Of a stretch of DNA of 27,591 bases, positions 1,637-27,179 are shown piece by piece. The DNA is taken from positions 1-27,591 of IMG/VR virus record IMGVR_UViG_3300030118_001168. The stretch is one strand, 5' to 3'. The position numbers were made by a program, and so were the translations under genes. The stretch's first letter is position 1. Every line of letters begins with the position of its first letter. The notes under the pieces were generated by a model. The model made no database searches. It was not told the DNA's origin and saw only the letters and a list, made by a program, of their open reading frames with translations. The DNA is from a virus.

Positions 1637-3183
1637 TGGCAACAATTCAGATAATACAAATACCAACACAACAACAACTTTACACGGGAACAAACACGTT
1701 TGACGAATGTTTGCCGACAAACTATTTCCCAATTTTGCCAGTGACCGTGCAAGTGCAAGACAATCTTGCAATATATTTTAAAGTTAAATTTATTTTACGT
1801 GTATATAAAGACAGTGTTTCTGACGCTAATTTATTGGCTACACTTAAACAAAGAACAAACAATTTTTCGACAACAACCGACCAAGTTGCAATGTTTGATT
1901 TGCAGGGCATTGTAAACACACAATTAGGATTTACATATCGTGACGCAGACAATGTAAACAATGAAGTGCATAGCATTGGAAACCATGATAATGACCAAAT
2001 ATTTACACGTAACCAAGCGACAATAAAAACTATTGTTGTGGTTGCAACATGGGAAAAATCAGACAACGCAAACGATTCGCCAGTAGAACAAACTGGTGAC
2101 ACAGTGACAATGACAATGTTTTTTGCACCATCAACATTTAGATTATTTAAAACAGTAGACCCGTCAACAAATCCTTTAAACAGTTATTTTATTAATAATT
2201 TAGGTTCACAAGTGTTGACAAACACACCAATTAACAGTGATTTTAGGGTTGGAAATCGTGCGTCTACGGGCATTTTATTACGTGGTCGATTAAATTATGT
2301 TAGTGCGTCAAGTTGTTACCATACAATAGCGTTTTTAAATAAAAGTGGGTGGGGTTCTGACGGTCAATATATAATTTTAAAATATTATGATAGCAATTCA
2401 ACGCAGGTTGGCAACACTTATGCCATAGAAAACAACACAACACAAGGGGGTGTTTTACCTGCAAGTGCAAACAGTGACGATAAATATATGATTTTTGCAG
2501 GTGTTGGAACTAAAAATTTAAATTTTTATGTTGGCGACGCCTATAAAGATACGGTTGCGATTAGCACATTTGACGGTCAACCAAACAACGTGTCTGGGTG
2601 GTCATATTATACAATACATTTGGCAAATGCTACATCTGGCACAGACGCAACGCGTAAATCACAACAATACATTTTTATTAAAGACGACACAGTTGAAAAC
2701 ACGTCAAGTTTTAGTGAGGTGACAAACTGCAAAGGTCAAGTTGTTGTTCGTCTCGCGTGGGTCAATGAACTTGGCGGGTGGGATTATTACAATTTTAGAG
2801 GTGGTCAAGTTGAAACAATGCAAACAGAACGTATTGAATACAGTTCAATATTGGGTGCAGAACAATTGTCTGACAATAACATTTATCGTTTTGACACATG
2901 GGGTCAAGGCAAAAGGACACTTAAAACAAACACAACATTAAAGGCAAGATTGCAAACACAATTTATAACGGAAGAAGAATCTAAATATTTAGAACCATTG
3001 TTCAGTTCACCTGCGGTTATGGTTATTGATAACAACATGGAAACGACAACATTTGAAAACGCAGGTCAATCAGTAATTGTGACAAGCAAATCTTACGAAC
3101 GTAAAACATCACCAAAAAACAAATTAGAAATACAATATACTTTTGAAATAGAATACGCTAATAAATTAAGCACAATTTCGTAA
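1636..3183 (+). CDS. Tail protein (distal tail/baseplate type)
   Basis: The product is 515 aa, rich in Thr, Asn and beta-strand-like alternation, with no signal peptide or membrane segment. The N-terminal 180 residues form one beta-rich unit. The centre (about 195-340) looks like an inserted carbohydrate-binding or jelly-roll type unit with many aromatic residues. The C-terminus (about 435-515) contains ITEEESKYLEPLFSSP and then YERKTSPKNKLEI, a pattern seen near the end of tail proteins in Bacteroidetes prophages. It is coupled on both sides (TAATG at 1634-1638 and 3181-3185). Next to the very large tail gene, a Dit-like role at the tail tip is plausible but inferred. Confidence 0.6.
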   Translation: MATIQIIQIPTQQQLYTGTNTFDECLPTNYFPILPVTVQVQDNLAIYFKVKFILRVYKDSVSDANLLATLKQRTNNFSTTTDQVAMFDLQGIVNTQLGFTYRDADNVNNEVHSIGNHDNDQIFTRNQATIKTIVVVATWEKSDNANDSPVEQTGDTVTMTMFFAPSTFRLFKTVDPSTNPLNSYFINNLGSQVLTNTPINSDFRVGNRASTGILLRGRLNYVSASSCYHTIAFLNKSGWGSDGQYIILKYYDSNSTQVGNTYAIENNTTQGGVLPASANSDDKYMIFAGVGTKNLNFYVGDAYKDTVAISTFDGQPNNVSGWSYYTIHLANATSGTDATRKSQQYIFIKDDTVENTSSFSEVTNCKGQVVVRLAWVNELGGWDYYNFRGGQVETMQTERIEYSSILGAEQLSDNNIYRFDTWGQGKRTLKTNTTLKARLQTQFITEEESKYLEPLFSSPAVMVIDNNMETTTFENAGQSVIVTSKSYERKTSPKNKLEIQYTFEIEYANKLSTIS

Positions 3184-6100
3184 TGAATAGAGTTCGACTA
3201 ATAGTATACAGACAACCAGACAGTGCAACAACAACGGAAACTGGTTATGAACTTGACTTGCAAGGCACTCCAAACGTGTCATTAAATTTTCAGTTTAGCG
3301 ACATAAAAGAACCGCAAACAAGAAAAGCAAGTTTTTCGCAGACATTTAAGTTGCCATTTACTGACACAAACAACGACTTTTTTCAAAACTGGTATAATGT
3401 AAATTTAGAAACACTAATATTTGACACACGCAAAAGGTTTAATGCGATTTTATATGTAGGCACACAACCGCAATTTGAAGGTTTTATTCAGTTAAAAGCG
3501 GTTTATAAAAAAGCGTGTTTATACGAAGTTGTTTTGTTGTCTAATACTGCGGATTTGTTTACAGTAATTGGAAACAAGCCGTTAAAAGACGCGTTTAAAT
3601 TAGCCGACGGGTTTACTTACACGACTGATTATAACCACGACTTTACAGAATCAAATATCAAGGCAAGTTGGGACGGCACGGCAGACGGTTTCAACAATCT
3701 TAGTGGTGTTTCGTTGCGTGATACGACTGGCGGTGTGCAGAAAATAATGTATGACATAAGAGTTACAAAAGCGGGTTTTTTCTATTCTCAAAATGGTGCG
3801 TCATTTTTAAGTATGTCACAAACTAATGTTGACGCCTACGACAACGAACTTGCAAGTATTTTACAGGTGCCAATAACACAATTACGACCGTCAATACAGT
3901 TAAAAGAAGTTTTTGCACGTATCATAAATAGTGCGGGTTTTACGTTTTCGTCTAATTTCATAAACGGTTCATATTTTACTAAACTATTTATGACCCTTGC
4001 GGGTTATTTAGGTGACGAGCCTTTGCCAATGACAAATAGCGGGACGCAACCCGCAGGAGAAATGAAAGTTGGTAACAACAGTCAATGGGGAAATTGTCGC
4101 GGTGGCAACGCGTCAACAATAGCAGGTGACGGACAAGCACTTTTAAATAATAGTGGCAACCCAGTCAACATTGGTCAAACAATAAATCCTGCGTCAACAA
4201 TTGTGACTGTCCCTGCAAATACAACAAGCGGATTTTCTTGCATATTTAACGAACTTGACACATGGAACAGTCAATATAATTATTTTACAAGACAGTTCGA
4301 CGCAATGTTAACACTTAACGTTGGTCACGGTTTACAACTGCAAAACGTTCAAACAACAAACGAAAATTCTGGCGGATATTGGCGACTGCACGTGTATTTA
4401 GTAGAATGGGACACAGTTAATAATGTAGAAGGCAATATAATTGCAGGGAGTGAAGTAATTGAAGAAGATTACACAAATCCGAATTTAATTAGCGACCAAG
4501 TCTTTTTTTACAATCATTTAATTGACTTGACAACAATGGCAATTGGACAGTCTGCACGTGTTAAAATGAAAATGTCACAAGTTAAACGAACAACTGGAAA
4601 CAGTTGTCGAATTCGCTTTGGTTCGCCAGATTATCAAGTTACTTGTGCAAGTTTAAACAACCGTTTAGTTATAACATGGAATAGTTTTTCAACCTTTGTT
4701 TATGGCGTCGGACAAGGTGGTGTCAATATACCGTCATGCGTTGACCCTGCACTAACACAAAAAGATTTTTTAATTGATATAATACAACGTTTCAACCTTG
4801 TTATAATACCAGACCAAGAAGACCCGACAAACTTAATAATTGAACCATACAATGAATTTTTAGCACAAGGAACAATAAGGTCTTGGACGCACAAATTAGA
4901 CTTGTCAAAAGAAATAATTATAAAAGACACAACAGAACTGCAAAAAGCAACAGTTCAATTGTCAGACAAAGAGGACGTTGACTTATTCAACAAAGAAATT
5001 GCCGAAACGCAACCACAAATTAATGTTTACGGACATTACGACGAACTAACAATAAACAATGACTTTGCAAAAGGCGAATTGACAAACAAACCAATTTTTT
5101 CGCCTTATATAAATGGGCAAGTTTATGTCAGTGAAGACACGCAACAACCAACACAAATTAACAACATGGCGGTTCATTATGAACACAGTTACAAAGAAAA
5201 CGAAGGCGAAGTCGAAGTTTCACTTGAACCAGTTAATCCAAAGTTGTTTTTCTATCGTGGCACACCCGTTGACACAATTGGAAACGGCGGTAATGCGGTT
5301 ACATATTATTTACACAATCAAAACGTTGCAGGTGCAACAATCACGGCGTTTGCGTTTACAAATTACCCCGTCTGCACACCATACGACATTGACCCGTCTG
5401 GCACTGACGACACATTCACTTTATCGCCAAATACAAAAAGTCTATATTTTGACGCTAACCCCCCAATTTTTGGCAACCTAACTATTTTTAATTATAATGA
5501 CATAGAGGGGACATGGTCTAACAATACACTATACGGATTATATTGGCGAACATATTTAAATTCGATTTACAACGAAGGTGCGAGAATTATGGAATGTTAC
5601 TTGTATTTGGACGAAGTTGACATTTCAACATTTGGATTTAACGACGAAATATTTATAAAAGACACATACTGGCGTATTTTAAAAATTGAAAATTATCAAG
5701 TTGGCGTAAAAGCAACAACAAAAGTGACGTTGTTAAAAATTATAGAAACTGAAATTCCTTGCATTGGTTGTGATTATGTTATTGCTTCAGATTCAACTGG
5801 GTCAAATTTGTATGCAAATGCACTTTATTGGTGGTGTCCCGAAGACAATCCAAATTGCAATCCTGCAATTGGCAATTATGCAACCGAAGGTGTTGAAGCG
5901 TTTCGTGATGTTGTAGCAAACGAAAGTTGTTGCACGTGTGCAGGTGGCACACCATTGACGGGAATCACGTTTTTTGAAAGTCAAGGTTTATACCCATGTT
6001 TAGCAAATACGGGTTCAATGCCAATTAACCAATTAAACAGAACGTTAGTTCGTTCAGTGTTACAAGGGGGACGAACAAAGCAAATAGGTTTTGGAAAGTT

Positions 6101-11829: not shown

Positions 11830-12075
11830 TTATTTAGTTTCGACAAAGACAATTTCGTTAGGGTCAATTTGTAATCCATAGCCTTGATAATTTTCATCAT
11901 CACAATAACCAGTATCACCGAGTTTAACATATAATGTTGCATACCAGTCATTTTTAATTTTTACACTATATAGTCTTTTTGTAGTTTTACCCACTCTATA
12001 AAAATTGTCTTCGACATCTAATTTGCTAAATTTTATAAATTTGCCATTCATTCCAAGTGTATTTATATTTTGCAT
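11830..12075 (-). CDS. Small unknown protein, the only - strand gene
   Basis: This 81-aa protein (starts MQNINTLGMNGKF) is soluble, mixed charge and beta-like, and I do not recognise it. It is judged real for two reasons: its leader matches, base for base over about 35 nt, the leader of the + strand gene at 20065 (GTATAGAAAAAAAATAA, then ACTTAAAAATAGAGA before ATG), and it converges on a bidirectional terminator. A host-like promoter precedes it. It is therefore probably expressed early, although it sits among structural genes, and could be an accessory or regulatory gene inserted as a unit. Confidence 0.7.
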   Translation of the reverse strand: MQNINTLGMNGKFIKFSKLDVEDNFYRVGKTTKRLYSVKIKNDWYATLYVKLGDTGYCDDENYQGYGLQIDPNEIVFVETK

Positions 12076-12112
12076 TTCTCTATTTTTAAGTTATTATTTT
12101 TTTTCTATACAA

Positions 12113-12501: not shown

Positions 12502-12922
12502 TTCTAGTGACGCCATGACGTCAAATGAATTTGATTTAATGTTATTAGACAAATCAAATGTTATATATAAACCCATATTGCAATTTGTAAGTCAAGAAAC
12601 AGAAGCAGGAATTTTTGGTCTAGCTACAATAATAGCACTAGACACAAAACAACGTTTTTTTAGACTGCGTATATCTTTGACAAACGACGGCACAAAAGAC
12701 ATAGAAACGGGAAAATTTGGTTTTGGCACGTATGAATTGCCGTTTGGTTTATATAATTACAATGTTTATGACAACATAAGCAACACAAACACGTTAATTA
12801 CTGATTTAAAAATAATACATAAAGGCATGATGAACGTAATTTCTGACCAATCTGCAACGAAATTTGTTGGCAAAATACACAAACAAAACAACAACGTTTT
12901 TGTTTCAAATAATCTGGCATAA
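12482..12922 (+). CDS. Unknown beta-rich structural-type protein
   Basis: The 146-aa frame opens with GTG at 12482, inside the previous gene; the first ATG is at 12514. The GTG start gives a natural N-terminus (IHLTVNSSDAMTS). The protein is beta-rich with aromatic residues (TKQRFFRLRISLTND; YELPFGLYNYNVYDN) and resembles short proteins of Bacteroidetes phages that sit near neck and fibre genes. There is no signal peptide or membrane segment. A head-fibre or tail accessory role is possible. I cannot name it. Confidence 0.55.
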   Translation: MIHLTVNSSDAMTSNEFDLMLLDKSNVIYKPILQFVSQETEAGIFGLATIIALDTKQRFFRLRISLTNDGTKDIETGKFGFGTYELPFGLYNYNVYDNISNTNTLITDLKIIHKGMMNVISDQSATKFVGKIHKQNNNVFVSNNLA

Positions 12923-12923
12923 T

Positions 12924-15221
12924 ATGAAAAATAAAAATAAAAAAAATTATAATATGTCGGTTGTGAATATGTCACATTATAACATTCCGCACATAATAGA
13001 AAAAGACAACAAAGACTTTGTCAGTTTTGGACTTGATAATTTATACCCGCAATATTTAATTGAATTATACACTGGTTCTGGGATAAATTCTGCCATTATA
13101 AAAGGAGTTGCGTCAATGATTGCAGGTGACCAACAAGGTAGTTATCAAGGTTTGGACGTTGTTGATAAAGATATTTTAGAAGGTGACGCAAAAGAACAGT
13201 ATTTAAAATTTGCAAAACTGTTAAATAAAAGTGACCGCAACACAATCAAAAATTTAGCGTTTGACTTAAAACTTTTTGGAACGTGTTATATTAACACAAT
13301 ATATAATAAGACAAAAACCGCTATTGCAGAAATAAAGCACGTTCCCGCACAATACATAAGAAGTGGAAAAATTGACAGTTACGGCAAAATAAATGAATAT
13401 TATTACTCTTATGACTGGTCTAATCAACGAAAATATAAACCGCATATAATAAAAGCGTTTGACCCTAACAACAGAACAGACACTTCACAATTATTGTGTG
13501 TTAAAGAATACAATCCGCAGTCATTTTATTATGGCATACCAGATTATGTTGGCGGGACTGACTATATTAAACTAGATATGTCAATTGCAGAACTACACCT
13601 TGCAAATATTGAACATAATTTTATGCCGTCGGCTATGGTTTCTTTTAACAATGGTATTCCTAGCGACGAAGAACGCATGGAAGTTGAAAGAAAACTAAAC
13701 GACAAATTTTCTGGTTCTGGTAATAGTGGCAAATTAATAATTACATTTAATGACGGCAAAGATACGTCGCCAGAAATAACACCGTTAAACACTGGTGATA
13801 ATGATGACAAATATCAGTTTTTGTCGACAGAGGTTTCGCGAAAGGTTTTGACGGCACATAGAATTGTTAGTCCATTGTTATTTGGGGTAAAAGCCGAAAG
13901 CGGTTTTGGTAACAATGCCGAGGAACTAAAAGACAGTTTTGAACTGTTGTTGTCAAGTGTTATAAAACCATTTCAATCAACATTATTAGAAGGTTTAAGC
14001 AAAGTTTTTAGACTTAACGGCATTGACAGTCTTGACATATATTTTAAGACCGTAAAACCCGCACAATTTATTGATGTTGAAAAAGTAATTGACGAAGAAA
14101 AAGAAGGTATTGACATAGAAGACGTGACCATTGAAAAAATGGAACAAATTATTGACAGTCATAAAAAAAAAAGACAAGATTTTAAAGACCTAAAAGACAT
14201 TGACACAAAGCCAACAAAAGGCATGATTGACGAAGCAAAAAAGGGTTTAGAATGGCGTCGTGAATATGGGCGAGGTGGCACAATGGTTGCCGTTGCACGT
14301 GCAAGGTCAATTGTCAACAATGAAAATTTATCTTTTGAAACAATTTCACGAATGAATAGTTTTTTTGCAAGGCATGAAAAAAGTTCTAAAGGCGGACAAG
14401 GATTTAAACCAAGTCAAGACGGCTACCCGTCGGCAGGACGGATTGCGTGGAGTTTGTGGGGCGGTGACGCGGGACAAACATGGGCAAAGAAAAAAGTTGC
14501 AGAAATTGAAAGGGTTCGTGAAGACTTGTCAATTAACGTGACAGATGACAAGGTTGATTTAAGTTATTTTGACGACATAGGAATAAAACTTGACGAAAAC
14601 AAGTGGTTTGAAGCACATTCAGAAACAATTGATGACCATAAACTAGACAAAAGGTTTCACGAATTTGCTTATGCACCCGCAGGAACTCCAAACGTTGCAG
14701 ACAGTTCATCAGACGTTGGAATGTTTCGAATATTGTATCGTTACAGTCAAACACTGTCAGTTAGCAAAAAAACTGGACAAATAACAAGTCGTGAATTTTG
14801 TCAAAAAATGGTGGCAAAATCTATTGGCGGGACTTTGTATCGTATGGAAGACCTTGAAAAAGCGTCAACACGTTCAGTTAACAAAGGTTTTGGGGCAGGT
14901 GGTTCAAATAGATATAATATTGCATTATATAAAGGCGGAAAAAATTGTCGCCATAAATGGGAACGCGTGTTTTATTTTAGGCGTCAAGTTCCAGAGGGTT
15001 CAACATTTGTTGATGTTGACGGAACAGAATATCAAGAAGGCGAATTTCTGCCAAACGGAACATTAAATAATTTTACACTTGTGTCGCAACAGTTTGCAAA
15101 CGGCAAAATTCCAATGCCAAATGACGCAGACATGAGAAAAACAACTTGGCAAATGCCAAGACACGGTTCATTAAAACCAAACAAAGCAAAGGAAAAAAGT
15201 AATTCAATAAAAGCGGGATAA
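12924..15221 (+). CDS. Portal protein with two C-terminal fused domains
   Basis: With the ATG at 12924, 1 nt after the previous stop, the product is 765 aa; earlier starts would overlap the upstream gene. Residues about 1-410 form the portal, with the signature FVSFGLDNLYPQYLIELY at about 30-48, followed by GINSAIIKG and IAGDQQG. A charged helical linker leads to a domain at about 428-530 (GRGGTMVAVARARSIV; ARHEKS; DGYPSAGRIAWSLWGGDAG), then a domain at about 570-730 with FCQKMV, VNKGFGAGG, LYKGGKNCRHKWER and YFR. These two units recur in phage head proteins, as free domains or fusions, with unknown function. The portal ring is the DNA gateway and joins the connector encoded next. Confidence 0.82.
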   Translation: MKNKNKKNYNMSVVNMSHYNIPHIIEKDNKDFVSFGLDNLYPQYLIELYTGSGINSAIIKGVASMIAGDQQGSYQGLDVVDKDILEGDAKEQYLKFAKLLNKSDRNTIKNLAFDLKLFGTCYINTIYNKTKTAIAEIKHVPAQYIRSGKIDSYGKINEYYYSYDWSNQRKYKPHIIKAFDPNNRTDTSQLLCVKEYNPQSFYYGIPDYVGGTDYIKLDMSIAELHLANIEHNFMPSAMVSFNNGIPSDEERMEVERKLNDKFSGSGNSGKLIITFNDGKDTSPEITPLNTGDNDDKYQFLSTEVSRKVLTAHRIVSPLLFGVKAESGFGNNAEELKDSFELLLSSVIKPFQSTLLEGLSKVFRLNGIDSLDIYFKTVKPAQFIDVEKVIDEEKEGIDIEDVTIEKMEQIIDSHKKKRQDFKDLKDIDTKPTKGMIDEAKKGLEWRREYGRGGTMVAVARARSIVNNENLSFETISRMNSFFARHEKSSKGGQGFKPSQDGYPSAGRIAWSLWGGDAGQTWAKKKVAEIERVREDLSINVTDDKVDLSYFDDIGIKLDENKWFEAHSETIDDHKLDKRFHEFAYAPAGTPNVADSSSDVGMFRILYRYSQTLSVSKKTGQITSREFCQKMVAKSIGGTLYRMEDLEKASTRSVNKGFGAGGSNRYNIALYKGGKNCRHKWERVFYFRRQVPEGSTFVDVDGTEYQEGEFLPNGTLNNFTLVSQQFANGKIPMPNDADMRKTTWQMPRHGSLKPNKAKEKSNSIKAG

Positions 15222-19968: not shown

Positions 19969-19991
19969 TCTAAATTTTTTTTGCCCAAAAC

Positions 19992-20023
19992 TTGATTTAT
20001 ATTAAAATTATATTATATATTTG
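19992..20023 (+). promoter_or_regulatory. Host-like early promoter
   Basis: TTG at 19992-19994, 21 bases, and TATATTTG at 20016-20023 match the Bacteroidetes -33 and -7 (TAnnTTTG) elements. The following leader, GTATAGAAAAAAAATAA and ACTTAAAAATAGAGA, is shared with the - strand gene at 12075. This is the likely start of the early transcript running to the replication genes. Confidence 0.65.
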
Positions 20024-20064
20024 TCGTATAGAAAAAAAATAACATTAACTTAAAAATAGAGAAA

Positions 20065-20247
20065 ATGAAAACAATACTAGAAAAACAAATCGAATACAAT
20101 TCAGATAAAAAAAGAATACTAACTGAATTAAAAGAATTAACTAAATTAATAGAAAAAGACGAACTTAATCAAAAAACACTTGACAACATATCTAGTTCGT
20201 TAGAAAATATTATTCACGATTCTAATTATAATTATATTTGGGAATAA
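20065..20247 (+). CDS. Small early protein, coiled coil
   Basis: This 60-aa protein is the first gene after the early promoter. It is almost entirely helical and charged (KKRILTELKELTKLIEKDE) and probably forms a coiled coil. Its leader is nearly identical to that of the - strand gene, so both are likely early. I do not recognise it; small early phage proteins often bind host targets, but nothing here shows that. Confidence 0.55.
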   Translation: MKTILEKQIEYNSDKKRILTELKELTKLIEKDELNQKTLDNISSSLENIIHDSNYNYIWE

Positions 20248-20361
20248 ATTAAAATTTAGTCGTTGTGGCGACTATAAACAGTGCATTAAGCCACAAGCGT
20301 CCCGCAGAAATGCGGGGATTGTAAAAACATTAAAAAATAGAGAAATGAAAAATCAATTAAA
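20247..20361 (+). repeat. 115-bp direct repeat, copy 1
   Basis: This segment is identical to 20587-20700 except for one A in a run (A6 versus A5). It spans the ribozyme-like RNA, the leader AAAATAGAGAA and the first five codons (MKNQL) of the downstream gene. Near-identity of non-coding and coding parts suggests recent duplication or conversion of a leader cassette. Confidence 0.95.
20257..20323 (+). ncRNA. Pistol-type self-cleaving ribozyme, copy 1
   Basis: P1 is TAGTCG (20257-20262) with CGACTA (20269-20274). The 6-nt loop TTGTGG pairs fully with CCACAA (20291-20296) to form the pseudoknot. The linker has TAAACAG and TTAAG, both as in or close to the known env25 pistol sequence (UAAAUAG, UUAAG). 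GCGT at 20297-20300 matches the conserved GCGU, with G20297 at the G40 general-base position. P2 is CCCGCA-GAAA-TGCGGG (20301-20316). P3 is TGCA (20282-20285) with TGTA (20320-20323). The predicted cleavage site is A20318/T20319; env25 has G-U there. Cleavage would leave a short A-rich leader on the 20345 gene. Confidence 0.85.
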
Positions 20362-20572
20362 AAGTAAAGCTATCAAAAGAGATAGGGAATTTATAGAGTG
20401 GACTATTAAGTGGTTAGACAAAAGAAAAAAAGATACAATTAGATTTCTTGAACTAAAAGAATTGGGATTACTAAACCAAATCTTTGACCCAAACGAAATG
20501 GATTGTATTGAGATTAGAGTTAAAAATCATTTCGGAACCAGAGAAGAATTTGACCAAATCAGTTTCGGATAA
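20345..20572 (+). CDS. Small unknown protein behind ribozyme 1
   Basis: The 75-aa product begins MKNQL like the gene at 20684, then diverges. It is helical and charged, with WTIKWLDKRKKDTIRFLELK at about 24-43. Codon use differs from the structural genes: Asp is GAT in 3 of 6 cases, and Arg is mostly AGA, whereas structural genes strongly prefer GAC. This suggests separate ancestry. No function recognised. Confidence 0.6.
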   Translation: MKNQLKSKAIKRDREFIEWTIKWLDKRKKDTIRFLELKELGLLNQIFDPNEMDCIEIRVKNHFGTREEFDQISFG

Positions 20573-20586
20573 CCAGAGTATTAATT

Positions 20587-20700
20587 AATTAAAATTTAGT
20601 CGTTGTGGCGACTATAAACAGTGCATTAAGCCACAAGCGTCCCGCAGAAATGCGGGGATTGTAAAAACATTAAAAATAGAGAAATGAAAAATCAATTAAA
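20587..20700 (+). repeat. 115-bp direct repeat, copy 2
   Basis: This is the second copy of the repeat at 20247-20361, offset by 340 bp, with one A fewer in the A-run before TAGAGAAATG. It again ends within the first codons of a small gene starting MKNQL. Confidence 0.95.
20597..20663 (+). ncRNA. Pistol-type self-cleaving ribozyme, copy 2
   Basis: It is identical in sequence to copy 1 over the whole folded region: P1 20597-20602/20609-20614, pseudoknot loop 20603-20608 with 20631-20636, P2 20641-20646/20651-20656 with a GAAA loop, and the predicted cleavage site at A20658/T20659. It lies 20 nt before the start codon at 20684. The arrangement would separate the mRNA of the 20345 gene from that of the 20684 gene. 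Confidence 0.85.
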
Positions 20701-20854
20701 CATAAAAGAATTACAATTGATACAAGATTTAATTGTTGATTGGAAATTTAACAGAGATATTTTGAATCAATTACCCATATCAGATGACAAAAAAAATTTG
20801 TTAGATGAAATAGGCATAAAATTATTAAATCAAATAAGACAACAAAAAGGTTAA
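20684..20854 (+). CDS. Small unknown protein behind ribozyme 2
   Basis: This 56-aa frame (MKNQLNIKELQLIQDLIVDW) is helical, with alternating leucine/isoleucine. It shares only the first five residues with the product of the 20345 gene. Asp codons are GAT in 5 of 6 cases, unlike the GAC-rich structural genes. Placement immediately after a ribozyme leader supports expression. No known family recognised. Confidence 0.6.
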   Translation: MKNQLNIKELQLIQDLIVDWKFNRDILNQLPISDDKKNLLDEIGIKLLNQIRQQKG

Positions 20855-20891
20855 TAATAAATAAAACAAGTATTAATAAAAAAATAGAGAA

Positions 20892-21140
20892 ATGAATAAT
20901 CAAATATATAAGGACGTTACATTAAACGCCGACAGTGTTTCAATTGTTTTAGACGCACTAGAAAAACGAAAAACAAATTTATCTAACATATTAGAAAAAC
21001 TAAGTTTAGATTTACACGCAAGTTATACAGACACCGAAATTCGTGGCGTCCAAAATAACATGACGTTAATTGTTGAGCAAATAAGAACTATAAATATGAC
21101 AATTTCAGAGTTCAAAAATACACGTTACTACACAAAATAA
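20892..21140 (+). CDS. Small unknown early protein
   Basis: The 82-aa product (MNNQIYKDVTLNADSV) is mostly helical, with a heptad-like centre (SIVLDALEKRKTNLSNILEK). Its leader keeps the AAAATAGAGAAATG element and the start MNNQ resembles the MKNQ of the two previous genes, but no ribozyme precedes it. It may have lost the RNA part or share only the translation signal. No function recognised. Confidence 0.6.
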   Translation: MNNQIYKDVTLNADSVSIVLDALEKRKTNLSNILEKLSLDLHASYTDTEIRGVQNNMTLIVEQIRTINMTISEFKNTRYYTK

Positions 21141-21146
21141 TATATT

Positions 21147-21401
21147 ATGAAAAAAAGATATTTAATACACACTAAAGGCAACTATTATACAATGGTGCAA
21201 GACTGCACAGTAATAAACAAAGAAGTCGTTGACGTTAAAGTTGGTCACGGTTATATTGAGTTTTATGGCACTGAAAATGAACTAGACAAAATGTTAGATT
21301 ATTTTGTAAGTCAGGGCGACCAGTATAACAAAGTAATTGGCGTATATGAAGACGACCCCGTTCAAGAGGAATATTACAAAAATTTATTGACAAAAAAATG
21401 A
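21147..21401 (+). CDS. Small unknown early protein
   Basis: This 84-aa protein starts 6 nt after the previous stop. It has a basic N-terminus, a beta-like centre (TMVQDCTVINKEVVDVKVG) and an acidic helical end. No membrane segment or motif is recognised. Its last 4 nt overlap the next start (ATGA at 21398), which supports translation of both. Confidence 0.65.
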   Translation: MKKRYLIHTKGNYYTMVQDCTVINKEVVDVKVGHGYIEFYGTENELDKMLDYFVSQGDQYNKVIGVYEDDPVQEEYYKNLLTKK

Positions 21402-21721
21402 TTAATATACATTGTTTGGAATTTGTTAAGGTCGGCAAAACCTACAAATCAAATCACGGCGGAAAATGGTTTCATATTTATTTTAAAGATAATGACAACG
21501 GCAAAAGTTATCGCACGACATTATATGAAAATATGAGAAATTTTCACAACTGGAAAAAAATTGTTGATTCTGCAACACGTGGTGACTATATTGACAATTT
21601 AAAATTTAAATTATACAAAGGTAAAAAAATTGTAGACGCAGACAGTCACCCAAAATTAATTAGTCAAGATGACATTTTAGAAATAGAAAAGTCTATTTTT
21701 GAAAATTATTTAGGAATATAA
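21398..21721 (+). CDS. Small unknown early protein
   Basis: The 107-aa product (MINIHCLEFVKVGKTY) looks like a compact alpha/beta protein with strands in the first half (KWFHIYFKDNDNGKSY) and a helical acidic C-terminus. It is coupled by ATGA to the upstream gene and followed by the SSB-like gene, so a role in DNA metabolism is possible. I do not recognise it. Confidence 0.65.
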   Translation: MINIHCLEFVKVGKTYKSNHGGKWFHIYFKDNDNGKSYRTTLYENMRNFHNWKKIVDSATRGDYIDNLKFKLYKGKKIVDADSHPKLISQDDILEIEKSIFENYLGI

Positions 21722-21732
21722 ATTATTAAATT

Positions 21733-22182
21733 ATGATAACAAGCAAAATTATAAACATTGAAAAACAATCAAAACCATTTATTACAAATGACGGAAAAAC
21801 ATTATATGTGTTTCAGTTAAAAATGGAAAACGGTGACATTGGCGGACTGTTTAAGACAACGGAAAACCCTTATGTTAGCGTTGGCGACACGATAAATTAT
21901 ACAAAGACAGAACGCGGAAATATAAAGATTCAACGTGACGGATTTGTTTCATCTAACAAAGAAAATTTTAATTATACTAAAGACGAAAAAACTAAAATTT
22001 TTGACGCTAAAGACCGCAGAATTAGTAAATTAGCAATTATTAGAGATACTATACAATTAGTTTGTCATGACAAATTACAAATAAATGAAATGCAACCATT
22101 TGCAGAAAATTTGTTAAATTGGGTTTACGATAAACAAGGCGTTAAGGATTTGGAATTTACAGACGATAAAATTCCGTTTTAA
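21733..22182 (+). CDS. Single-stranded DNA-binding-like protein
   Basis: The 149-aa product has a beta-rich N-terminal half fitting an OB fold (residues about 1-75: INIEKQSKPFITNDGKTLYV, then FQLKMENGD) and a helical second half. It ends in DDKIPF, which closely matches the acidic DDDIPF tip that SSB proteins use to recruit replication partners. It is followed by a replication-initiator-like gene. The C-terminal tip and OB-like pattern support the call; no search was run. Confidence 0.6.
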   Translation: MITSKIINIEKQSKPFITNDGKTLYVFQLKMENGDIGGLFKTTENPYVSVGDTINYTKTERGNIKIQRDGFVSSNKENFNYTKDEKTKIFDAKDRRISKLAIIRDTIQLVCHDKLQINEMQPFAENLLNWVYDKQGVKDLEFTDDKIPF

Positions 22183-22189
22183 ATAAACT

Positions 22190-22257
22190 GACATTCCCGC
22201 GCACACGCCCTTTCTTATTTTTTTTCTCTATTTTATCAGTGTGTGTGTGGGTTTGTC
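22190..22257 (+). other. Long imperfect hairpin between SSB-like and replication genes
   Basis: GACA (22190-22193) pairs with TGTC (22254-22257). After a TT/TT internal loop, 22196-22208 pairs with 22239-22251 over 13 bp, including three G-T pairs. The 30-nt loop is pyrimidine-rich with T8. It is the most GC-rich patch in the early region. It could be an RNA leader structure, a terminator without a U-tract, or part of an origin next to replication genes. Confidence 0.5.
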
Positions 22258-22272
22258 TTATAAATAGAGATA

Positions 22273-23037
22273 ATGAAAAAAACATATTTTAACCACGATT
22301 CTAACGCAAGAAATGATTTAAAACTTATACGATTAAGACGTGCAGGAGGTTTTGAATATTACGGCATATACTTTGCAGTTTTAGAATTGTTATTTAGTGA
22401 GGAAAACAAATTATGTGTTGACGATTACGAAACACTGGCATTTGGTTTGCAATGCGACACAGAAAAACTAAAGTCAGTAATTGAGGATTTTGAATTATTT
22501 GTCATTGAGGGTAATTGTTTTTATTCTAAGCGATTATTTGAGCATATTGAGGAAATTAACAACAAATCAAACAAAGCGTCTGCAAACGCTAAAAAAAGGT
22601 GGTCAAATGCGGTTGCAATGCAGTCGCATAAGGATTGTTCTACTAGTAAAGTAAAAGTAAATAAAAGTAAATTAAATAAAAGTATAGAAGAAAGAATAAA
22701 GGACTTTAAAAAGTCCATACACGCAATAGAAGGTATAAATGAAAATGATAAAAATGATTTTTTTAATTATTGGACTGAAAAGAATAAATCTGGCACAAAA
22801 TTTCGTGCAGAATTGCAACGCACTTTTGACATAAATTTAAGGTTAAAAAGATGGGCGTCAAATAATTTTAACACTTCTAATAAATCAAAGTTTCCCGAAT
22901 ATTTTGACGAATACACATTTAAAAAATTAGACGCTAAAGGTCAACAAGAATATGTTAAACACTTGAAAGACTTAGGATTTGAAACAGTATATTCACCAAC
23001 TGCGGGAACAATGTGGCGAAAAAAACATAAAGAATGA
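22273..23037 (+). CDS. Replication initiator-like protein (Lin1244-type N-terminus)
   Basis: The 254-aa product starts with YFNHDSNARNDLKLIRLR and GGFEYYGIYFAVLELLF, the pattern of the DUF4373/Lin1244-Lin1753 N-terminal domain (about 4-95) found in phage replication organisers. A lysine/serine-rich linker (about 95-145) follows, then a C-terminal region with FFNYWTEKNKSG and RTFDINLRLKRWA, typical of replisome organiser proteins that bind the origin and load the host helicase. It sits after the SSB-like gene. No helicase or polymerase is encoded nearby, so host enzymes are probably recruited. Confidence 0.72.
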   Translation: MKKTYFNHDSNARNDLKLIRLRRAGGFEYYGIYFAVLELLFSEENKLCVDDYETLAFGLQCDTEKLKSVIEDFELFVIEGNCFYSKRLFEHIEEINNKSNKASANAKKRWSNAVAMQSHKDCSTSKVKVNKSKLNKSIEERIKDFKKSIHAIEGINENDKNDFFNYWTEKNKSGTKFRAELQRTFDINLRLKRWASNNFNTSNKSKFPEYFDEYTFKKLDAKGQQEYVKHLKDLGFETVYSPTAGTMWRKKHKE

Positions 23038-25696: not shown

Positions 25697-26038
25697 ATGA
25701 GTGAATTTCCAAACAAAGCAACACAATTTAGTTCAACAAATCAACCAGACAAACGTGGTCGTCCAAAAGGTAGTAGAAATGTTGCGACAGTATTAAAAGA
25801 ATTGTTGTCAACACAAGACACAAACATGGGTGGTGTTGGTGATTTTGGTTCGCCAATTGCAAAAATGTTAATACAAATTGCATTTAGTAAAGACAGTAAC
25901 AACAACGAAAAGTTGAAAGCAATTAAAGAAATACTTGACAGAATTGAAGGATTGCCAGAACAAAACGTCAACGTTTCTGCAAAACCCCCGTCGTGGATAA
26001 ATGAAGACGATGAAGAAACAAGCGAAACCATATTATGA
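25697..26038 (+). CDS. Small terminase subunit-like protein
   Basis: The 113-aa product has a basic N-terminus, KRGRPKGSRNVATVLKELL (about 19-37), the hallmark of DUF5681-like proteins encoded before large terminases. A helical middle (MLIQIAFSKDSNNNEKLKAI) and an acidic tail follow. It probably recognises phage DNA. It overlaps the large subunit frame by up to 38 nt. Confidence 0.65.
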   Translation: MSEFPNKATQFSSTNQPDKRGRPKGSRNVATVLKELLSTQDTNMGGVGDFGSPIAKMLIQIAFSKDSNNNEKLKAIKEILDRIEGLPEQNVNVSAKPPSWINEDDEETSETIL

Positions 26039-27179
26039 TTTAAAAAATTCTAATAAACGAATTTGTGTGTTGCAAGGCGGAACAAGGTCTGGCAAAACAT
26101 ATTCCGTGTTGTTAGCGTTGATTGAATTTGCATATAAAAATAAAGGCAAGGGACTATATATTACAATTGCAAGACAGACATTGCCAAGTTTAAAGGCGAC
26201 GTCAATGCGTGATTTTTTTGACATACTAAACAAGGAAAACTTATATGACGAACGCAATCACAACAAGTCAAATAACATTTACATTTTATATGGCAATTTT
26301 TTTGAGTTTATAAGCACTGATTCAGAACAAAAAGTCAGAGGGCGTAAAAGGTCGGTTTTATTTATGAATGAGTGCAATGAATTCACAATGGACACTTTTA
26401 TTCAATTGTCATTGCGAACAACATATAAAATAATAATTGACTTTAATCCAAGTGAAGAATTTCACTGGCTTTATGAACAAGTTATTGACGCAAAGCGTGA
26501 CGACGTTGACTTTTTTGTTTCTACATATAAAGACAATCCGTTTTTAGAAAAAGCGACAATAAAAGAAATTGAAAGATTAAAAGAAGTTGACGAAAATTTA
26601 TTTCGGGTTTTTGGTGAAGGTCGGCGAGGGGTTGCGACTGACACCATTTTCCCGTCATTTAATATTGTTGACAATATTCCAGACAACGCAAAAGAAATTG
26701 CACTTGGTCTTGACTTTGGTTATTCGGCAGACCCTACCAGTTTGGTTCGTGTATGCAAACACGATTTAGACTTGTATATTGACGAACTGGTTTATCAACG
26801 CAATTTGACAAATCAAGATATTGCAAATAAAATAAAAGAATTAGATATTGACAGACGTTCGGAATGTTTTGCCGACTCTAGTGAACCTAAAAGCATTGAA
26901 GAAATTTTTAGAATGCAAGTTGTTAACATTAAACCCGCTAAAAAGGGACATGACTCCATTCGTATTGGTATAGATGTTATGAAACGGCACAAAATTAACA
27001 TTACAAAACGCAGTGTCAACACAATCAAAGAATTTAGGAACTATAAATGGATAAAAGACAAAAACAATCAAATTACAAACAAGCCAATTGACGCATTTAA
27101 TCACACAATTGACGCGGTGCGTTATGTGTGTTTGAATAAATTAATGGTCACATATTCTGGCAAATATTATGTCAGTTAA
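26001..27179 (+). CDS. terL: Terminase large subunit
   Basis: At 392 aa it packages DNA into the procapsid. The ATPase has Walker A GGTRSGKT (26-33) and a Walker B-like SVLFMNE (118-124, Glu124). The nuclease domain starts at GLDFGYSADPT (Asp238), with Asp292 in FADSSEP and Asp371 in HTIDAVRY as likely metal ligands. The first start is ATG 26001; ATG 26010 is equally possible and loses three residues. It is the packaging partner of the portal, which lies far away (12.9-15.2 kb) and not directly downstream as in most siphoviruses. Confidence 0.92.
   Translation: MKTMKKQAKPYYDLKNSNKRICVLQGGTRSGKTYSVLLALIEFAYKNKGKGLYITIARQTLPSLKATSMRDFFDILNKENLYDERNHNKSNNIYILYGNFFEFISTDSEQKVRGRKRSVLFMNECNEFTMDTFIQLSLRTTYKIIIDFNPSEEFHWLYEQVIDAKRDDVDFFVSTYKDNPFLEKATIKEIERLKEVDENLFRVFGEGRRGVATDTIFPSFNIVDNIPDNAKEIALGLDFGYSADPTSLVRVCKHDLDLYIDELVYQRNLTNQDIANKIKELDIDRRSECFADSSEPKSIEEIFRMQVVNIKPAKKGHDSIRIGIDVMKRHKINITKRSVNTIKEFRNYKWIKDKNNQITNKPIDAFNHTIDAVRYVCLNKLMVTYSGKYYVS

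Follow-up and report, generated by a model that had tools for sequence, protein, structure and literature searches.

Two identical pistol ribozymes in a duplicated cassette ahead of small phage genes, and their probable part in mRNA processing

The chemistry of pistol ribozymes is well understood, and their biological role is unsettled. Members of the class (RF02679), among them env25 and the pistols of Alistipes putredinis and Lysinibacillus sphaericus, have in common with the two copies described here P1, a 6-bp pseudoknot, P2, P3, the core and the junction length. Pistols are known near phage genes, and their Mg2+-dependent chemistry, which yields a 2',3'-cyclic phosphate and a 5'-OH, is established; the nucleotides at the cleavage site vary somewhat among pistols, and the length of the junction is constant (PMC4604425). 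Clustered prophage hammerheads, reported in 2011 from Agrobacterium tumefaciens (a triple at ardA), Clostridium scindens and Azorhizobium caulinodans, cleave polycistronic RNA both in vitro and in E. coli (PMC3088659). As at our locus, several ribozymes on one strand flank single genes or short blocks, and they are proposed to yield gene-length mRNAs; our locus carries a different ribozyme class, and its cleavage is predicted, whereas that of the hammerheads has been demonstrated (PMC3088659). The HHphage hammerhead variant of haloviruses HF1 and HF2 lies 13 nt before a gene start, a likewise short distance, and a mapped transcript 5' end falls at most 3 nt from its cleavage site, but it is a single-copy ribozyme of the hammerhead class in an archaeal virus (PMC3088659). 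Theta (HDV-like) ribozymes of gut phages are another case of a self-cleaving RNA encoded by Caudoviricetes and proposed to serve RNA processing; they act on the 3' trailers of tRNAs, whereas the pistols described here sit between protein genes (PMC10879173).

The stretch of DNA that we analysed (the window) comprises one IMG/VR virus record in full (27,591 bases, 33% G+C), which has no terminal direct repeat. The best matches of its terminase are mostly in phages of Bacteroides, Parabacteroides and Phocaeicola, at ~40% identity, which makes a Bacteroidota host likely. A 785-aa portal-like ORF (12864-15221) matches a portal family below the Pfam cut-off and over residues 124-359, and because the match is confined to those residues, other domains may occupy the C-terminal half of the ORF. 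A blastn search of 20000-22300 against INPHARED gave no match. The features that concern us are the following.

19991..20023, plus strand: candidate Bacteroidota-type promoter (cTTG-N21-TATATTTG) before the small-gene run, found by eye and with a -7 element scan
20065..20247, plus strand: first small gene, 60 aa (ORF), with leader aaaaatagagaaa-ATG
20247..20361, plus strand: cassette copy 1, comprising ribozyme, leader, ATG and first codons; direct repeat of 20587-20700
20258..20323, plus strand: pistol ribozyme 1 (RF02679, 62.8 bits, E 2e-9, model positions 1-68), predicted cut A20318^U20319
20319..20344, plus strand: A-rich leader of 26 nt on the downstream mRNA after predicted cut 1
20345..20572, plus strand: small gene MKNQLKSK..., 75 aa (ORF)
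20587..20700, plus strand: cassette copy 2, with the same parts as copy 1; direct repeat recognised by comparing the sequences
20598..20663, plus strand: pistol ribozyme 2 (RF02679, 62.8 bits, E 2e-9), identical in sequence to copy 1, predicted cut A20658^U20659
20659..20683, plus strand: leader of 25 nt on the downstream mRNA after predicted cut 2
20684..20854, plus strand: small gene MKNQLNIK..., 56 aa, with a relative in the 59-kb phage contig L333
20881..20891, plus strand: leader motif aaaatagagaa-ATG, lacking a ribozyme, before gene 20892
20892..21140, plus strand: small gene of 82 aa with no ribozyme ahead (ORF)
21147..21401, plus strand: 84-aa gene; of 81 related loci, 30 have a homologue, mostly on the other strand
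22273..23037, plus strand: replication initiation-like protein (Lin1244_N / phrog_2562), the query with which the phage family was collected
26001-27179: Terminase_3 large subunit

The candidate promoter, recognised from sequence alone, has one mismatch in its -33 element and is the sole candidate; no promoter was found that matches both elements, -33 and -7, exactly. The 60-aa protein has no Pfam match above the cut-off, no PHROGs match better than E 0.01 and no relative in IMG/VR by tblastn. Neither the Pfam and PHROGs scans nor IMG/VR held a relative of the 75-aa protein, and IMG/VR held none of the 82-aa protein.

The first-pass annotation had described two RNAs with every element of the pistol architecture, and each element lies where it had been placed. 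An Rfam cmscan over the window returned the two full-length Pistol matches and no other RNA above threshold, both far above the curated RF02679 cut-off of 34.5 bits. In copy 1, P1 is formed by 20258-20262 and 20269-20273, and its 6-nt loop (UUGUGG, 20263-20268) is complementary at 6/6 positions to CCACAA at 20291-20296, giving the pseudoknot. UAAACAG and UUAAG are both present, GCGU occupies 20297-20300, P2 (20301-20306 with 20311-20316) is capped by a GAAA loop, and P3 consists of 4 bp (20282-20285 with 20320-20323), with one nucleotide more on its 5' side than the Rfam consensus. All elements of copy 2 are found at the coordinates of copy 1 plus 340. The env25 numbering and the roles of residues A/G32, G33, G40, C41 and G42 have been described (PMC6154101). 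With that numbering, A20289 corresponds to A32, G20290 to G33, G20297 to G40 and C20298-G20299 to C41-G42, and the same core residues are present in copy 2 (+340), in agreement with the earlier placement of G20297 and G20637 at the G40 position. Pseudoknot-containing hammerheads share both secondary structure and connectivity with pistols (PMC11300833), and the elements could for that reason be taken for members of that class; we regard this as scarcely credible, since Pistol is the only one of all Rfam families, hammerheads included, to reach threshold, and the core residues are those of a pistol.

Six related pistols, taken from the window, from its family and, in one case, from outside it, agree with this fold: 99.2% of cells are paired and 7 pairs show compensatory change, compared with 32-50% paired and 0 compensatory pairs when the same sequences are read in shifted registers. 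P1, P2 and P3 are paired in all six (100%), with compensatory changes in P1 and P2 and variation on one side in P3. The pseudoknot, whose loss in homologous sequences would have spoken against the class, is retained, and 4 of its 6 pairs change on both sides in the relatives. In addition, 25 distinct and fully paired pseudoknots occur among pistols that were collected without demanding a pseudoknot. The E-value and the covariation together exclude a chance origin of the matches. These data indicate that 20258-20323 and 20598-20663 are sound, ordinary members of the pistol class, in a non-trivial arrangement.

When the copies are aligned with the Rfam model and numbered as env25, the predicted cuts fall at 20318^20319 and 20658^20659. 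The dinucleotide at each is A-U, with the junction length kept; the A that stands before the cut, where pistols commonly have G, had been pointed out before and appears to be a minor natural variant. Among 159 unique pistols from viral and bacterial contigs, the junction reads G-G-U in 116 and G-A-U in 7, and this, with the cleavage-site variation on record (PMC4604425), leads us to expect that the window copies would self-cleave. The presence of A-U rather than the commoner G-U nevertheless counts against a role in processing. It would be more at home, as would the stability of the folds (z -2.9), in a static structure that stabilises 3' ends or insulates translation between genes, with cleavage slow or absent. 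We consider such a structure improbable, because the equivalents of A32, G33, G40, C41 and G42 are all kept, the strict junction length is maintained although a static hairpin would not need it, and G-A-U junctions recur in pistols that are otherwise intact.

The two ribozymes lie on the same strand, 340 nt apart, on either side of the 75-aa gene. They had been reported as identical over 67 nt; the identity holds, but its extent is greater: 20247-20336 matches 20587-20676 over 90 nt, and past an A run that differs by one base another 24 nt agree, taking in the ATG and the first ~5 codons. Each unit of ~115 nt begins next to the stop region of the upstream gene and ends ~5 codons inside the downstream gene, and the two are copies of one duplicated cassette among small genes that run rightward. 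No alignment was found between the 75-aa and 56-aa proteins, which were considered as paralogues, nor with the 82-aa protein, and the gene bodies behind the two copies are unrelated. A repeat that is nearly exact and is shorter than or near short-read length could also arise in assembly, by the joining of short-read variants, and neither a second contig with the same arrangement nor, in an exact-motif scan of IMG/VR, a second contig with the window's own ribozyme was found, though near-identical records may have been missing from what was scanned. That the tandem is such an artefact is nonetheless very improbable: the copies differ at their 5' edge and, within the repeat, at one base of the A run, which indicates that both are real sequences, and similar tandem spacing is seen in L191, a family member, as well as in further contigs. 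The matches listed in a blastn search of the cassette against phages were short 33-nt matches to the P2 hairpin in Klebsiella T4-like phages (E 0.07 or worse), which we took as chance or terminator-like.

The ATG follows the end of the ribozyme at 21 nt in copy 1 and 20 nt in copy 2, where ~20-25 nt had been given earlier, and the predicted cut at 26 and 25 nt. The leader and start codon of both copies are predicted to be unstructured. The leader pattern occurs four times, before genes 20065, 20345, 20684 and 20892, with ~1 match expected across the window, and because genes 20065 and 20892 have it with no ribozyme, it seems to be the phage's own translation start region, ahead of which the ribozyme looks to have been placed twice. 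Among the rightward structural genes, a minus-strand 81-aa ORF (11830-12086) has the same leader, aaaatagagaaa-ATG, as the small, presumably early genes and no ribozyme ahead; it is possibly an inserted small gene.

The 56-aa gene has one relative in IMG/VR, on the 59-kb contig of a different phage (L333), where 3001-3165 is 97% identical at the nucleotide level to 20684-20848 of the window over 165 nt. The homology begins exactly at the ATG and stops just short of the stop codon, and in the other phage the gene belongs to a different row of small genes and has another leader and no pistol. Since the match runs from the ATG on and the pistol is absent, gene and ribozyme-leader are separate modules; that they move separately is, as far as we can tell, a new observation, and the 56-aa gene needs no pistol in order to be kept. 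In this other phage MKNQL is the 56-aa gene's own start, which makes copy 2 the likelier source of the duplication, as we infer from the sequences. The near-identity from the ATG on has the appearance of a recent transfer of a single ORF between two phages. The sample number of the contig (3300030406) is also that of L125, a close relative of the window.

This pattern bears on a further explanation, that the ribozyme-leader block serves mainly as a patch of homology for gene shuffling by recombination, with self-cleavage as a side effect. Identical cassettes on both sides of an unrelated 75-aa gene, a 56-aa gene that is 97% identical in a different phage with homology from the ATG exactly, and the patchy presence of pistols across the family are all what such a patch might leave behind. 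The 56-aa gene moved without the ribozyme, however, which therefore did not serve as the shared patch on that occasion, and compensatory changes keep the fold while the sequence drifts. Array copies, mostly 55-85% identical, would make poor patches, and the fixed distance from cut to ATG is left unexplained. We therefore judge this explanation unlikely, though less so than the others considered here.

The family comprises 80 related loci collected by way of the replication protein at 22273, and 79 records were scanned with the pistol model. Pistols were found in 3 of the 79 (one each in L162 and L184, two in L191) and were lacking in the other 76. All occur in the region that corresponds to the window's small-gene run, and each is on the same strand as the gene that it precedes; these genes are unrelated. 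Their cuts precede the ATG by 25 nt in L162, 34 nt in L184 and 26 nt at both copies of L191. The latter is thus a tandem pair within the same family with 26-nt leaders, and one of its copies, at 82% identity, is the closest pistol to those of the window. When other ribozyme classes were sought in 11 related loci that lack a pistol, no Rfam family reached threshold. The absence of a pistol from 76 of 79 records, from the leader of gene 20892 and from the 56-aa gene of L333 indicates that the function is dispensable, which counts against the processing role. Homologues of genes 21147 and 21398 are on the opposite strand in most relatives, and the small-gene block therefore appears inverted in the window. 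The block covers window positions 20065-21721, from gene 19778 to the replication gene, and in most of L123-L202 its orientation is apparently the opposite one, with the two homologues on the minus strand.

Pistols are common in IMG/VR and in GTDB genomes according to a core-pattern scan. The Rfam model found two to five copies in 9 of 49 IMG/VR records, a figure that is not a rate since some records had been chosen for two prior scan matches. The descriptor gave 17 multi-copy sets; discounting L105, which repeats the genes of L207, and L280, a non-coding array, left 15 contigs of the sampled public data, the window included, in which 2-5 pistols lie on the same strand amid small genes. The duplicated cassette had been thought unusual, a view that these contigs, with L191 of the same family among them, do not bear out. 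Gene maps show each copy wedged between two successive ORFs of its strand, and in many cases it overlaps the stop codon of the upstream one. Typically 24-40 nt separate pistol and start in the multi-copy contigs, and from cut to ATG the median for multi-copy sets and family singletons is 26 nt (quartiles 25-38). Among 137 non-redundant pistols, 54% have the start codon of an ORF of at least 40 codons 10-60 nt past the cut; random positions on the same strand give 21%, and the opposite strand gives 12%. In 77% the pistol begins between -20 and +30 nt of an upstream ORF's stop, a placement seen at 22% of random positions. These controls are crude because gene calls were simple long ORFs, yet the contrast is large. 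Copies are more alike within a set (68.5% identity) than between sets (60.4%), as are the 20 nt past the cut (63.7% versus 50.3%); the higher identity within sets fits duplication within a genome and later drift under which the fold is preserved. The densest row seen is that of L204 (G077; 2090-4485, minus strand), with five pistols in 2.4 kb, each before a small gene, and recurring aagggagagaacATG leaders.

The discounted array of L280 (SLSH01000368.1, 1829-2929, minus strand) consists of ~3.4 tandem units, non-coding and ~323 nt long, on a contig of 3.2 kb that was binned with a Bacteroidales MAG. It contains four copies of the pistol, of which three exceed the Rfam cut-off and the fourth scores 29.2 bits. 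A neighbouring 359-aa ORF is tyrosine recombinase-like by eye and has no Pfam match. The array has the appearance of a satellite- or retrozyme-like repeat of ribozymes, unlike the phage rows. No report of pistol arrays or rows was found in the literature searched, to which the 2015 discovery paper and a 2019 review did not belong.

From the ribozyme family and its geometry, covariation, placement, duplication and recurrence in other phages, we infer cutting in the cell of one shared transcript, with an effect on expression. That the pistols are intercistronic sites of mRNA processing, which would cut one transcript into separate mRNAs for two small phage genes as the first-pass annotation proposed, is our best reading and in our judgement probable. 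As the rightward small-gene transcript emerges, each pistol would fold and cut itself at its predicted site. The upstream message would then end in a compact ribozyme with a 2',3'-cyclic phosphate, and the downstream message would carry a 5'-hydroxyl on an A-rich leader, short (25-26 nt) and unstructured, that resembles the likely leader of the first gene. Neighbouring small genes would thereby obtain separate mRNAs, with their expression and decay uncoupled. The second copy arose through duplication of the ribozyme-leader cassette.

The window is a good example of a recurring, poorly understood layout and not a one-off. More tentatively, and short of what we would call probable, pistol ribozyme-leader cassettes may be a portable punctuation, in many phages of several host groups, for operons of small genes, which would set an mRNA 5' end ~25 nt before any gene, duplicate, drift with the fold kept and reassort independently of the genes behind them; this could be the main role of pistols. 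Rows of pistols at a near-constant 24-40 nt before start codons, with identical copies ahead of unrelated genes and a ribozyme-free copy of one of these genes, provide a clean natural comparison and make the hypothesis of mRNA processing directly testable.
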